Source: Roseivivax sp. THAF197b | GTDB taxonomy: Bacteria > Pseudomonadota > Alphaproteobacteria > Rhodobacterales > Rhodobacteraceae | Assembly: GCF_009363255.1 (NCBI RefSeq) | Contig: NZ_CP045320.1 | Span: forward strand, 1 to 64,000 | DNA length: 64,000 nt | Direction: 5' to 3' | Part shown: positions 3,748-60,096 of the stretch, piece after piece | Layout of the letters: every line of letters begins with the position of its first letter | How positions within the stretch are numbered: the first letter of the stretch is position 1 | Notes under the pieces: model-generated | Seen by the model: only the letters and a program-made list of their open reading frames with translations | What the model was told of the DNA's origin: nothing | Database searches by the model: none | Translations under genes and position numbers: made by a program

Positions 3748-4950
3748 TCACTCAGGCAGGTCACCATCGCCAAACAGGTTAGGGAAAAGACGTTCCCGGT
3801 AGTCCAATGGGAAAGCCAACCGCACCGGCGTCTTCGGAGACGCAGAGGTCAGGTATCCGGCGGCGGTGAGTTGGCGGAGCGTATTGCGTGCCGTGCGCTC
3901 GGAAGTCTTGAGCACGACCTGGGCATCGCCCCGATCCAAAGCACCATGCCGAAGAACGGCCGAAATCAATTCGGGTGCGCGTTTGTCATCGATGGTATCC
4001 GCAACAAGACGACGATAGCGCTGGTCCAGTCCGCCGAGGTCGAACAGCTTTGCAGAGAACGTGATCTGGTCGAGCGTCACTTTCAGGAACCATTCGCTGA
4101 ACGTTTTCAATGCCGCCTCTGAAAGATTGCCGCGCCCGTCCCGATCTCCTCTTCGGGGACTATCCGCGAGATCCATCATCCGTTTGTACTCGCCCCGATC
4201 CGTCAGCCCGCGGGCCAGCCCACGCGATACGGACCAGAGCCCTTGGCCGCCGATCCCGGCAGTGAGGGCCATAGCATGAGACATCAGCCTGCTGACGCGC
4301 CCGTTGCCGTCCGGGAAAGGGTGGATGTAGTTCAGCCGGTGATGTGCCGACGCGATCGCGATGATCCGTCCGCTCGAAGACCGCGCTGCAATTTGAAACC
4401 GTTTGTCAAAATGATCCATGAACGCCGCAACGCGCGACGATGAAGGAGGTAGGTGGCGCCCGACCGCAACTTCCCGATCGTCATCTTGGCGCATGCGTCC
4501 CGGAACGATGGGCTCTTGTGTGCCGTCGGGATGTTCGATGACCCGAAACTCGTCAGGCATCTCGTCGTAGAAGCTCTTATGGACCCAAGTCAGGAATTCG
4601 ACAGATGTGGGGCGGGGCAGGGTGCCCTTGCGATGCATCTCGTCGATGGCCCGTTGAACGATGACGTGCGCCCGAGCCTCAAGGGCGAGGGGACGGGTTT
4701 CCTCTTCAAGCTCGGCGCCAGCCAGCGCCCTTTCGATGTCGCGGGGGCGTGTGTTGTGTCCTTCGATCAGGTTGGAGTAGTAGCAGTTCATCACGCGGAC
4801 GAGATCGGCAAGCTCGGCTGCGCTGTCAGGATGCAACCCTTGTCCCAGCTTGGTGGCTTCCCTCTGGATGTCGACCGAAAGGTCTGCCAATTCTGTAGGA
4901 ATATGCTCCTCGAAGAAGCAGGGTTCGATTCTGGCGGGTGTTTCCAGCAT
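3748..4950 (-). CDS. Fic-family protein with N-terminal inhibitory motif
   Basis: Fic proteins usually transfer AMP from ATP to target proteins. The core motif HPFPDGNGRVSR fits HxFx(D/E)GNGRxxR, so the catalytic His and nucleotide-binding residues are present. Near residue 60 (in the 400-residue product) is SNLIEG, matching the (S/T)xxxE(G/N) inhibitory helix, so this is a self-inhibited class II Fic that needs no separate antitoxin. The C-terminus looks like a winged helix (LKTSERTARNTLRQLTAAGYL). I prefer ATG 4950 (MLETPARIEP); an upstream GTG at 4995 would add 15 residues with no similarity I recognise. It is convergent with repC. Target and physiological role are unknown. Confidence 0.85.
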   Translation of the reverse strand: MLETPARIEPCFFEEHIPTELADLSVDIQREATKLGQGLHPDSAAELADLVRVMNCYYSNLIEGHNTRPRDIERALAGAELEEETRPLALEARAHVIVQRAIDEMHRKGTLPRPTSVEFLTWVHKSFYDEMPDEFRVIEHPDGTQEPIVPGRMRQDDDREVAVGRHLPPSSSRVAAFMDHFDKRFQIAARSSSGRIIAIASAHHRLNYIHPFPDGNGRVSRLMSHAMALTAGIGGQGLWSVSRGLARGLTDRGEYKRMMDLADSPRRGDRDGRGNLSEAALKTFSEWFLKVTLDQITFSAKLFDLGGLDQRYRRLVADTIDDKRAPELISAVLRHGALDRGDAQVVLKTSERTARNTLRQLTAAGYLTSASPKTPVRLAFPLDYRERLFPNLFGDGDLPE

Positions 4951-9639: not shown

Positions 9640-10332
9640 ATGGCTATTCTCAAGTTCTCTGCCTCCGCTGTCGCAGCGCAGATCGCCCATGCGCGCGCCT
9701 GCAAAACCTTCCTGCCCAACTGGAACGGGCCCGTGGACAGGCCGGCCCTGATCCTCATCGTCGGCTACGGCGTGCATCTGCGCTCGAACGGCATCGACGG
9801 CACAACCACCCGCATCGTCACGACCGAGCAGGCCGATCCGTCCTTCGCCTTTGCCGACGGCATGAACCCGTTTCGCGACACCGACTGGATGGCGCAGCGC
9901 CGCATGGCGTTTCGCGATCTGACCGGCCAGTTCTACACCGACATTCTCGACGATGTGCAGGTGCTGATCGACCGGGGGCAGGGGGCGATCCGGCTCGCCA
10001 CCGATGGCCACAGCATCCGCGTCTTCGTGCGCCGGGCCTCGGACTATCTGATCGGCGGGACCTACGAGGTGCCCTCAGGCCTCGGCGGTACCTTCCGGGT
10101 CATCCTCAAGGATGCCTGCGACACCTTCGCGATCGTGCAGAACTGTGGCAATTCGGCGTTTTGGGAATACGAAGATGATGATGCAGCACCAATGTCCCGA
10201 GAGCGCGCAGCGCGGCAGGGTATTGGTGCTTCAACTCATTCCCACAAACGCTGCGAGGATTTCGACGCCATGCAGCCCTATCGCGTGCCGCTCGATGCGC
10301 TAATGGAAATCGATGACCGGAGGGCGGCGTAA
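9640..10332 (+). CDS. Hypothetical protein carrying an in-ORF palindromic insertion
   Basis: I do not recognise the 230-residue product. Its first 180 residues read as a mixed alpha/beta domain (ALILIVGYGVHLRSNGIDGTT, TGQFYTDILDDVQVLIDRG, YLIGGTYEVPSGLGGTFRVIL). From about residue 182 the frame runs through a palindromic DNA element that adds PMSRERAARQGIG; the same peptide appears in VirB9 at the other end of the window. The last 35 residues resume an acidic tail (YRVPLDALMEIDD). ATG 9640 follows ACGGAAAG. The stop overlaps the next start as TAATG, so the two genes are coupled. Confidence 0.68.
   Translation: MAILKFSASAVAAQIAHARACKTFLPNWNGPVDRPALILIVGYGVHLRSNGIDGTTTRIVTTEQADPSFAFADGMNPFRDTDWMAQRRMAFRDLTGQFYTDILDDVQVLIDRGQGAIRLATDGHSIRVFVRRASDYLIGGTYEVPSGLGGTFRVILKDACDTFAIVQNCGNSAFWEYEDDDAAPMSRERAARQGIGASTHSHKRCEDFDAMQPYRVPLDALMEIDDRRAA
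10185..10230. repeat. Palindromic repeat element, copy 1 (inside an ORF)
   Basis: The arms AGCACCAAT (10185-10193) and ATTGGTGCT (10222-10230) enclose a core that is identical, from CAATGTCCC to GGGTATTG, to the element in virB9 at 59365-59412. The outer arms differ between copies but remain complementary. Confidence 0.75.
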
Positions 10333-57272: not shown

Positions 57273-58649
57273 TCAGAATATCTCCAGGTCGCGGTCGACC
57301 ATCACTGTGACGCGGGCCCCCTGGTCGACATAGATGACCGGACCGATCGAGAGATAATCGCCGATCACGCTGTCTGTGGCATCGGCCAGATCATCGCCCA
57401 CGTCTTCGAGCACATCCGCTGTGGTCTCATCTTGCACATTGGCAGCGGCGGCGCTTGGCGCGGCGGAGATCAGCGAAATCAGCGCTGCCGAGCCAAAGCG
57501 CTCATCAAAGCGCGTGTCCACGAAACCGGTGACACCCGAACGGCCAAGTTCATCACCGCCGAAGGAGCTGATCTGGACGGTTTGGCCCGCGGGCAGGATG
57601 ATCCGGTCCCAAGCGATGGTGACCCGGCGTTGCGCGATATCGACGCCAGAGCGATAGCGCCCGATGAGGCGGGACCCACGCGGGATCAGGAGACGGCTGC
57701 CATCGAAACTGAACACGTCTTCGGAAACAACGGCCCGGGTCTGACCGGGCAGGGAGCTGTAGAGGGCGGTTTCCATGACGGCCTGGATCATCGTGCCCTG
57801 GATGATGGTGTTGGAGGGGTTGGCGATGACCTCAGCCTGCGTCACGGACGTTGGCAGCGCGCCGTTCAGCACGAAATCCGTCACCTCGCCAAAGGTGCGC
57901 TCGGTCAGTGCCGTTTCATTCGCGCCTGATGTGCCGCCAAAGGCGATGGTGGGCGAGGCGATCCGGCGCTCCTGAAACGCACGCTCTTCGGCCGCGCGGC
58001 GCTCAAGTTCCGCGAGCCGTCTTGCTTCCTCCTCGCGGCGCAGCCGTTCTTCTTCTCGCGCGCGCAACTCGTCCTCGGTGGGACCGATGGGTGCGGGGAC
58101 GGGGCGGTTGGCCTCGAGTTGGGCCAGTTCCAGATCCATGCGGAGTTGTTCAAGCTCGCGATCGCGGGCCGTGAGCTCATCGCGAAACTGTTGCTGTGCG
58201 GCTTCCGAGGCGGACTGCAGGGCGGCGATCTGCGCTGTCAGTGCATCAATGGCTTCGGCGGCGGTGTCTTCCTCGACGACCGGTTCAGGAGCGTTGCGCA
58301 ACTCCTCGATCTGGGCCTGCAGGGCGGTGATCTGGGCGAGAAGCTCGGCATTGGGTTCCACCGGCTCGGGTGCGACCAAAACCACTTCGGGCTCGGGTGG
58401 AGGTAGGGTTTCGATGGCGCCAAAGCCGTCGCCTTCGTTCTGGAAGACATCCGGCGTTGCCGTGGGCAGGGCCTCCTCTTCCTCAGGTTGGGACATGAGA
58501 TAGAGCAACGCACCGCCCGCGCCGATCACGAGGACGACGACCAAAGCGAGCAGCGGCGAGCGCCGTGGGGCAGGGGGGGAACCTGTGCCCTTGCCCTGCT
58601 CGAGGGCGGCGAGACGTTTCTCGAGGTCCGCGTTTCCGGTGTCGCTCAT
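57273..58649 (-). CDS. virB10: VirB10 trans-envelope scaffold protein
   Basis: The 458-residue protein has a cytoplasmic N-terminus, one membrane helix (PLLALVVVLVIGAGGALLYLM), a long Glu/Pro and coiled-coil region (about 90-230), and a C-terminal beta-barrel domain (VITQAVMET..., RGSRLIGRYRSGVDIAQRRVTIAWDRIILP, GVTGFVDTRF). ATG 58649 overlaps the virB9 stop (ATGA), so the longer frame is rejected. It spans the envelope and joins the channel parts. Confidence 0.92.
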   Translation of the reverse strand: MSDTGNADLEKRLAALEQGKGTGSPPAPRRSPLLALVVVLVIGAGGALLYLMSQPEEEEALPTATPDVFQNEGDGFGAIETLPPPEPEVVLVAPEPVEPNAELLAQITALQAQIEELRNAPEPVVEEDTAAEAIDALTAQIAALQSASEAAQQQFRDELTARDRELEQLRMDLELAQLEANRPVPAPIGPTEDELRAREEERLRREEEARRLAELERRAAEERAFQERRIASPTIAFGGTSGANETALTERTFGEVTDFVLNGALPTSVTQAEVIANPSNTIIQGTMIQAVMETALYSSLPGQTRAVVSEDVFSFDGSRLLIPRGSRLIGRYRSGVDIAQRRVTIAWDRIILPAGQTVQISSFGGDELGRSGVTGFVDTRFDERFGSAALISLISAAPSAAAANVQDETTADVLEDVGDDLADATDSVIGDYLSIGPVIYVDQGARVTVMVDRDLEIF

Positions 58650-59443
58650 GATCCCACCCCCGCAGGTGGCGTGGCCTCGATACAGACCGCCTCTTCCCCT
58701 ATCCGCAGCACCCATTGCCTGTTCACGCCCGAGACCCGGATAACGCCGTCTTCGGTGGCTTGCGTGTTGACTGTCCGTTCGCGGCCATTCGTGTAGCGGA
58801 AGATCGCCGGCACCGGCGCGTTCCGCGGAAATTCGAAATACGTAAACGTCCCGTCATCCCAAACACGGGTCGGGGTGAACTCGGTCCGCGCGCTGGCACC
58901 GTAATTGTAGTTCGGGGCTTGGGCCGCGATGGCACGCGTCGGACGTGTATTGTTCTCGGGGTAGCGGAACTGCACCACGTAAAAGGTCGGGCTGCGGGTC
59001 TCTTGGACGTTGAAGTAATAGCTCCGCCGGTTTGTATAGACCGTCACATTGGTATGCACGCCGCGTGCGACGGGCTTGATCGCGAAGGCCTGCCCGCCCG
59101 GAACGCCGTCGATCTCGAAGCCCTCCGTGTCGCCTGCGATGATCGAGCGGATGCTTTCACCCTCTCCAAATTCGACAGTGGTGACATGGGTGAGCGAGAC
59201 GCTGAGACGGTAGACCTGACCCTCCTGGTAGGTGGCCAAGCGAACCCGGCTGTCGTTGGGACCGCCACGCGGAATTGCTTCGGCGGAGGCAAGGCCGGGC
59301 AACAGGGCAATGACAAAAACAAGCGATCTTGTGAACAACAAACATGCGTTTCCGGAACGAGGAGTGTCGCCAATACCCTGCCGCGCTGCGCGCTCTCGGG
59401 ACATTGGCGACAGAGTATTTTGATTTGAATTCCGGAAACGCAT
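58646..59443 (-). CDS. virB9: VirB9 outer-membrane complex protein with palindromic insertion at the N-terminus
   Basis: The 265-residue protein has a normal VirB9 core: TYQEGQVYRLSVSLTHVTTVEFGEGESI, then YYFNVQET and TRVWDDGTFTYFEFPRNAPVPAIF. Before the signal peptide (LLFTRSLVFVIALLPGLASAEA) it carries an extra 33 residues encoded by the 100-bp palindromic element, including PMSRERAARQGIG. ATG 59443 overlaps the virB8 stop as TAATG. If that start is used, the signal peptide lies unusually far from the N-terminus; an internal start could restore a normal one. Confidence 0.9.
   Translation of the reverse strand: MRFRNSNQNTLSPMSRERAARQGIGDTPRSGNACLLFTRSLVFVIALLPGLASAEAIPRGGPNDSRVRLATYQEGQVYRLSVSLTHVTTVEFGEGESIRSIIAGDTEGFEIDGVPGGQAFAIKPVARGVHTNVTVYTNRRSYYFNVQETRSPTFYVVQFRYPENNTRPTRAIAAQAPNYNYGASARTEFTPTRVWDDGTFTYFEFPRNAPVPAIFRYTNGRERTVNTQATEDGVIRVSGVNRQWVLRIGEEAVCIEATPPAGVGS
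59344..59443. repeat. 100-bp palindromic element, copy 2 (5' end of virB9)
   Basis: Outer perfect arms ATGCGTTTCCGGAA (59344-59357) and TTCCGGAAACGCAT (59430-59443) enclose an inner hairpin with arms TGTCGCCAAT (59365-59374) / ATTGGCGACA (59403-59412). The core of the inner hairpin is identical to copy 1 at 10185-10230. The outer right arm contains the virB9 start codon. Confidence 0.8.
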
Positions 59444-60096
59444 TAATTCTCCAATCTGTCGGAGCGGATGGAATATTCGAGGACCGTGAAGCCGAATGGA
59501 TTGGTCCAGACCTCATCGATGGAGCGACGGGTCTCCGGGCGGAACTCGAAGAGTAGCGTCGCAGTGAAGAGGCCGGTCTGGGTGCCGTTAATGGACGTCA
59601 GGCGCTTGCGCAGGCGGACCGTCGCGCGGTTGGTTCCGATCCGGTTGATGCTGAGGATTTCCACGTCGAGCCGCGCATTGGGGCCATAGACCGTCGGCGG
59701 GTAATTCTCGTTGGCGCTGTTCCAGATCTGGCGCAGCCCGCTCTCTGCAGCCCCGTCCGAGCGGCGCAGGACACTTCGGATGCGCAGGTCATTGTCGAGC
59801 TGGTTATAGACCTCCCGGTCGGTCACATAGCGGAAGACTTCCGCCTCGATGATCGCCTGGTTGGCGGTCACCGAGGAGGCGCCCACCGAGGCTTCGGGGA
59901 GTGCAAAGCCGGTGGCGGGATCATAGGGGACAACAACGGGCGGGGGGTCGACATCGAGGATTGCGACAGCCGCGGCGCTCAGGCACCCGAGGATGCCGAA
60001 GATCAGCCCGACGAGCCCAAGGCGTTGCCAGAACCGTTCACGGCGCAACGCGCCATAGACCAGCTCTTCTTCGATGACTTCTTGTTCACTCACCAC
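59443..60096 (-). CDS. virB8: VirB8 inner-membrane assembly factor
   Basis: A 217-residue bitopic protein: short cytoplasmic N-terminus, membrane helix LGLVGLIFGILGCLSAAAVAIL, then a periplasmic NTF2-like domain (VTDREVYNQLDNDLRIRSVLRRSD, NPFGFTVLEYSI). The start is GTG 60096 or the next GTG. Spacing to the upstream virB5 is 16 bp. Confidence 0.9.
   Translation of the reverse strand: MVSEQEVIEEELVYGALRRERFWQRLGLVGLIFGILGCLSAAAVAILDVDPPPVVVPYDPATGFALPEASVGASSVTANQAIIEAEVFRYVTDREVYNQLDNDLRIRSVLRRSDGAAESGLRQIWNSANENYPPTVYGPNARLDVEILSINRIGTNRATVRLRKRLTSINGTQTGLFTATLLFEFRPETRRSIDEVWTNPFGFTVLEYSIRSDRLEN

Follow-up and report, generated by a model that had tools for sequence, protein, structure and literature searches.

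The first 64,000 nucleotides of contig NZ_CP045320.1 of Roseivivax sp. THAF197b (Rhodobacteraceae), here called the window, carry two copies of a palindromic element of about 100 bp, one in virB9 and one in a gene annotated as a regulator in plasmid relatives, and its sequence identifies it, very probably, as a non-autonomous miniature inverted-repeat transposable element (MITE) with ends of the IS630/Tc1-mariner type. In the mechanism we propose, the element of approximately 100 bp would have been inserted into TA sites by a transposase of the IS630 family working in trans, either at present or at an earlier time; as the element together with the 2-bp duplication amounts to 102 bp, which is divisible by three, insertion into a gene need not disturb the reading frame. 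Conjugative plasmids of marine bacteria would have received copies in virB9, in virB2 and in the regulator gene, and open-frame forms would have been retained and would then have spread with the plasmids. The safer claim is that this is a new IS630-type MITE of the Rhodobacteraceae; we call the variant new because its core is constant while its ends change, and full-text literature searching, judged by titles and abstract openings, turned up no description of it.

Termini, TA sites and the IS630 family

The copies have the tip pattern TA-NAGCG...CGCTN-TA. Length and frame counts rest on 47 of 95 distinct copies (a set taken from two Sulfitobacter genomes, with at least 72 and at least 73 copies, plus others), namely those with both tips, the other 48 being dropped; the span between the TAs was 100 bp in 38, 99 bp in three and 102 bp in six of these, so that all 47 constitute a short, repeated unit of 99-102 bp without room for a transposase gene. 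TA stood directly before 65 of 78 tips on the left and 55 of 75 on the right, the background frequency being 1.5%. On syntenic contigs of two Sulfitobacter strains, one copy with a second type of core (described below) represents an exact TA duplication as compared to the intact empty site, and a TA duplication with one substitution fits one copy of each core type at syntenic empty sites; one further empty/filled pair also fits a TA duplication, contains unread bases and was not counted.

Terminal repeats were found in 15 IS630-family loci (approximately 11 distinct elements), those of L211 being AAGCGTCCCGCCGAAAACTTGAATCG and AAGCATCCCGCCATTAACCTGAGACATATC. When compared with the best of six IS630 references, all of the AAG type with GAG-type ends left out, the left ends of the element scored 20.3/26 (n=66) and the right ends 21.0/26 (n=57), as against a mean of 8.9/26 and maxima of 15 and 16 for shuffled ends. 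The sides were also respected, 58 of 66 left ends being left-like and 45 of 57 right ends right-like, and a YTGA box begins at position 19 in 56/66 left and 51/57 right ends, as it does in most AAG-type IS630 ends. The initial annotation had likened the element, with its complementary outer arms, to the palindromic elements of Rickettsia (RPE) and had pointed to a REP-type transposase; terminal inverted repeats of the IS630 type fit these arms best, and since the arms match IS630 ends, RNA pairing is not needed to account for them and was rejected as their reason.

The 25 IS630 loci examined for the element core did not contain it (best E 0.58), and no autonomous version of greater length with these tips was present in the loci scanned, the sole match being two elements 720 bp apart. 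Several observations weigh against an IS630-mobilised MITE. No IS630 (DDE_3) match was obtained in the genome of THAF197b itself or in the multi-copy genomes G099, G250, G169 and G139, and the element and an IS630 transposase occur together in five genomes where 4.7 would be expected (35 and 40 of 295), while G013 (L203-L206) has 24 DDE_3 matches of IS630 type and no element was found in it. Both TA-flanked tips are visible in only 47/95 copies, and the virB9, virB2 and regulator copies today lack a clean TA duplication. Moreover, of eight plasmid records, seven place the annotated VirB9 start downstream of the insert and one (L281) has the annotation run through it. The mobilisation of the element may belong to the past. 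As a separate observation, the ten DDE_3 matches scored in G013 are identical to each other.

Copies in the window, in plasmid relatives and in other genomes

It had initially been proposed that a palindrome had moved in frame into two plasmid genes of the window, with an identical core, the same peptide in each and arms that differ but stay complementary, and these points were borne out. The core is identical over 38 bp in the two distant copies (Table 1), a reversed-pattern control giving 0 matches, and contig C4 of THAF197b carries a third exact copy; both window copies encode the peptide PMSRERAARQGIG in the frame of the respective gene, and the inner arms differ in sequence with complementarity kept, as compensatory changes within the inner hairpin. 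An outer 14-bp repeat had been described as an extra of the virB9 copy. It is indeed perfect there (59344-59357/59430-59443), but the regulator copy possesses an outer repeat too (GGCGTTTTGGGAAT/ATTCCCACAAACGC), perfect but for one bulged base, and both copies are therefore full elements of about 99 bp. The RNA fold had a z-score of -7.1 for the virB9 copy and -4.2 for the regulator copy, with 0/200 shuffles as good in either case. A diverged copy is located just beyond the window in the same genome, within virB2 (C3:65159-65210) and in a frame other than that of the window copies, and two more matches in this genome were not significant (E 0.16 and 0.85). Rfam 15 gave 0 matches above the gathering score over the window and, at a loose threshold, one match at the virB9 copy (E 6.9), while no tRNA or tmRNA was found in the window. 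On C4 this genome has a further virB9 that contains the element, its 45-base flanks being identical on both sides (window 59325-59452 and L003), and the cell thus seems to hold two related transfer regions.

Table 1. Positions of the element copies, their host genes and the second-core element
Feature	Position (strand)	Description	Basis
Copy 1	59345..59443 (-)	99-bp insertion at the start of virB9; tips ATGCGTTTCC and GGAAACGCA	Inverted repeats, fold, uninterrupted relatives
Core hairpin of copy 1	59370..59407 (-)	38 bp	Sequence match
Copy 2	10153..10251 (+)	In-frame 99-bp insertion in the gene for the 230-residue 'regulator', between AAT and TGC	594 vs 693 bp orthologues; fold
Core hairpin of copy 2	10189..10226 (+)	38 bp	Sequence match
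virB9	58646..59443 (-)	265 codons including the insert; CagX/VirB9 domain at residues 65-256, insert not in domain	
'Regulator' gene	9640..10332 (+)	230 codons; no Pfam family above cut-off	Annotation in plasmid relatives
Second-core element	L163:14927, L170:2020, L177:12913, L184:14456, L041:4108, L009:3921		

Plasmid relatives possess uninterrupted genes that are shorter by about 99, 99 and 102 bp, which establishes the copies as insertions; the comparison with orthologues suggested initially thus yielded uninterrupted forms of both virB9 and the regulator. For the virB8-virB9 region (197 records matched) 51 of the 60 matches listed lack 96-100 bp and nine are unbroken, and for virB2 (233 records matched) 19 of the 60 listed are unbroken, the other 41 being shorter by 102 bp (one by 105 bp). 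At the five empty virB9 sites that were read, virB9 is annotated from a TTG downstream of GGAG, the site of D. shibae pDSHI01 being GGAGAATTAG, and the filled form has the same GGAG followed by an ATG at the element tip. The regulator gene measures 594 bp in five plasmids as compared to 693 bp in L043, the window gene exceeding its 594-bp orthologues by exactly the 99 bp of copy 2. Between the regulator stop and the next gene, these five plasmids (L038-L042, ~3970-4075) contain a related, oppositely oriented copy, and no such copy is present downstream of the regulator in the window.

The search for further copies, likewise suggested at the outset together with a covariance model, found the element in other genomes. 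The model of the inner hairpin was built from 20 sequences, and six of these came from loci found by an exact 36-base match, for which reason core invariance among those loci proves nothing. At E <= 0.001 the family was detected in 35 of 295 sampled Rhodobacteraceae genomes, that of THAF197b included, with 1-11 matches each, these counts being lower bounds as few candidates were scored per genome; in a class-wide sample 2 of 289 genomes matched, both of them Rhodobacteraceae. Among 99 plasmid records counted at an E limit of 10 there were two of Cupriavidus, which may be chance. With genes called coarsely, 31 of the 95 distinct copies overlap a called frame; tandem genes flank 30, convergent genes 29 and divergent genes two, and three are at edges. 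Several of the frames overlapped look spurious. Same-strand pairs spaced approximately 102-104 bp apart, possibly tandem insertions, were noted at G580:C31:25066 and 25168, and at G581:C28:8667 and 8771.

A constant core between changing ends

Among the 20 aligned sequences nine pairs of the inner hairpin changed on both sides (22 cells), which 0 of 500 shuffles reached, slid versions giving at most two pairs; variants of the apical stem change together, as GCGC/GCGC, GGGCC/GGCCC and AGGCC/GGCCT. The mean identity of 17 copies (16 mixed-genome loci, some sharing one genome, and one EhC04 copy) was 93.7% in the core flanks as opposed to 60.8% and 62.7% in the ends. These compensatory changes and this constancy would also be expected if the inner hairpin were a functional nucleic-acid module, be it an RNA regulatory or processing element or a protein-bound DNA hairpin, for which the IS630-like ends are only a vehicle, an alternative that we consider unlikely. 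Four virB9 sequences with the standard core agree with it in that 0/51 four-fold comparisons differ in the core, as compared to 5/41 in the rest of the element and 136/331 in virB9. Across all eight virB9 sequences, however, the counts are 16/205, 25/172 and 640/1527, respectively, and, owing to three rearranged cores, the core differs on average more (0.159) than virB9 does (0.142); the four-fold counts are pairwise and non-independent, and recombination between plasmids may contribute to them. A functional module is further disfavoured by the absence of strand bias between tandem genes (15 sense, 15 antisense) and by the opposite orientation of the copy that follows the regulator stop.

The element ends resemble different IS630 subfamilies (GCGTCCCGCC, GCGTTTCGAC, GCGTTTCGGG and others), and elements of ~100 bp with similar tips but a second core (GTTCGCTGCCTCTC..TCGAACGCGAAAA) are present in 14 distinct contexts among the fetched loci. 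On plasmids the second-core element lies 14-18 bp upstream of the gene preceding virB9 in six records compared, and 28 records match. We tentatively suggest, as a possibility that we hold at well below even confidence, that this is a modular selfish element whose core is under selection as a folded RNA or DNA and has time and again taken up the ends of whichever IS630 subfamily is available, such that a single core can be carried by several transposases and the same kind of end can serve two cores.

Reading frames and related repeats

An open frame is kept in every distinct copy recognised by script in virB9 (14/14), the regulator (11/11) and virB2 (6/6), the virB2 copies being read in a different frame from those of virB9 and the regulator. 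In three of eight virB9 sequences (L278, L279 and L280; L118 is similar) the apical core is rearranged, yet the frame is kept, and the L043 regulator and the L036 virB2 are annotated with the insert as part of the gene. Most likely, given this retention of the frame, the insert is translated and lengthens the proteins by 33-34 residues, which in VirB9 and VirB2 would precede the signal peptide. At least one frame is open in 46 of the 47 copies with both tips. The notion that open frames are an adaptation of the element in its own right was rejected: two of six frames are open in 32 of these 47 copies, and two of six is near the figure of about 1.7 that we ourselves estimate for a random sequence of equal composition. 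Insertions in frame within genes of the chromosome were likewise discounted, as the frames concerned look by eye mostly antisense or spurious, and one (L259) is the regulator gene again.

The RUP element of Streptococcus pneumoniae, described in passages of PMC2229807 as 107 bp in length with IS630-Spn1-like ends and a TA target, resembles the present element in its size of about 100 bp, its ends related to an IS630-family element and its TA target. In contrast to RUP, the Rhodobacteraceae element sits within genes without breaking their frame and combines a constant core with variable ends, and stop codons in all six frames, as in RUP, are not its rule, given the open frames counted above. 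The same source portrays Rickettsia RPEs as palindromes of 105-146 bp situated in frame within protein-coding genes, and it describes bacterial MITEs, RPE among them, that form in-frame fusions. The element is like RPE, compared by description only, in being palindromic, about 100 bp long and in frame within protein genes (virB9, virB2 and the regulator), but its ends match those of IS630 and TA duplications fit, while the RPE passages of PMC2229807 give no transposase link; that it is an RPE-type palindrome with a mechanism of its own is accordingly very improbable, RPE sequences not having been compared. Still less credence attaches to a REP-type element mobilised by a RAYT (Y1) transposase, for although hairpin repeats in many copies, some in adjacent pairs, are reminiscent of REP, the TA duplication and the IS630-like ends are not, and no search for RAYT genes was made. 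An old peptide motif or domain common to the proteins, as the shared peptide of the two window copies might suggest, is refuted by the empty sites of uninterrupted orthologues and by the other frame in virB2, and non-coding copies exist elsewhere. The element, as an IS630-type MITE, is best read as joining a RUP-like mechanism to an RPE-like in-frame siting in genes.

Bru-RS of Brucella (103-105 bp, according to the part of PMC2267715 seen) and CIR of Caulobacter are, likewise, palindromic repeats of Alphaproteobacteria, compared here by description only; unlike the Rhodobacteraceae element, CIR is described as absent from genes in passages of PMC2229807. These also mention, for the Correia/NEMIS elements of Neisseria, TA termini and open frames of a 107-bp form fused to other frames; on description alone, the TA termini are alike and the host is different.

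The element adds to the few bacterial MITEs for which a plausible transposase family can be named, in a case that is also in frame in conserved secretion genes and in two frames. A consequence for annotation is that most of the virB9 plasmid records inspected, seven out of eight, begin the gene downstream of the insert. In the usual MITE the ends are constant and the interior drifts; a constant core with changing ends allows one to ask what selection acts on in a MITE interior, and if the modular reading were true, the element would be the reverse of the usual MITE.
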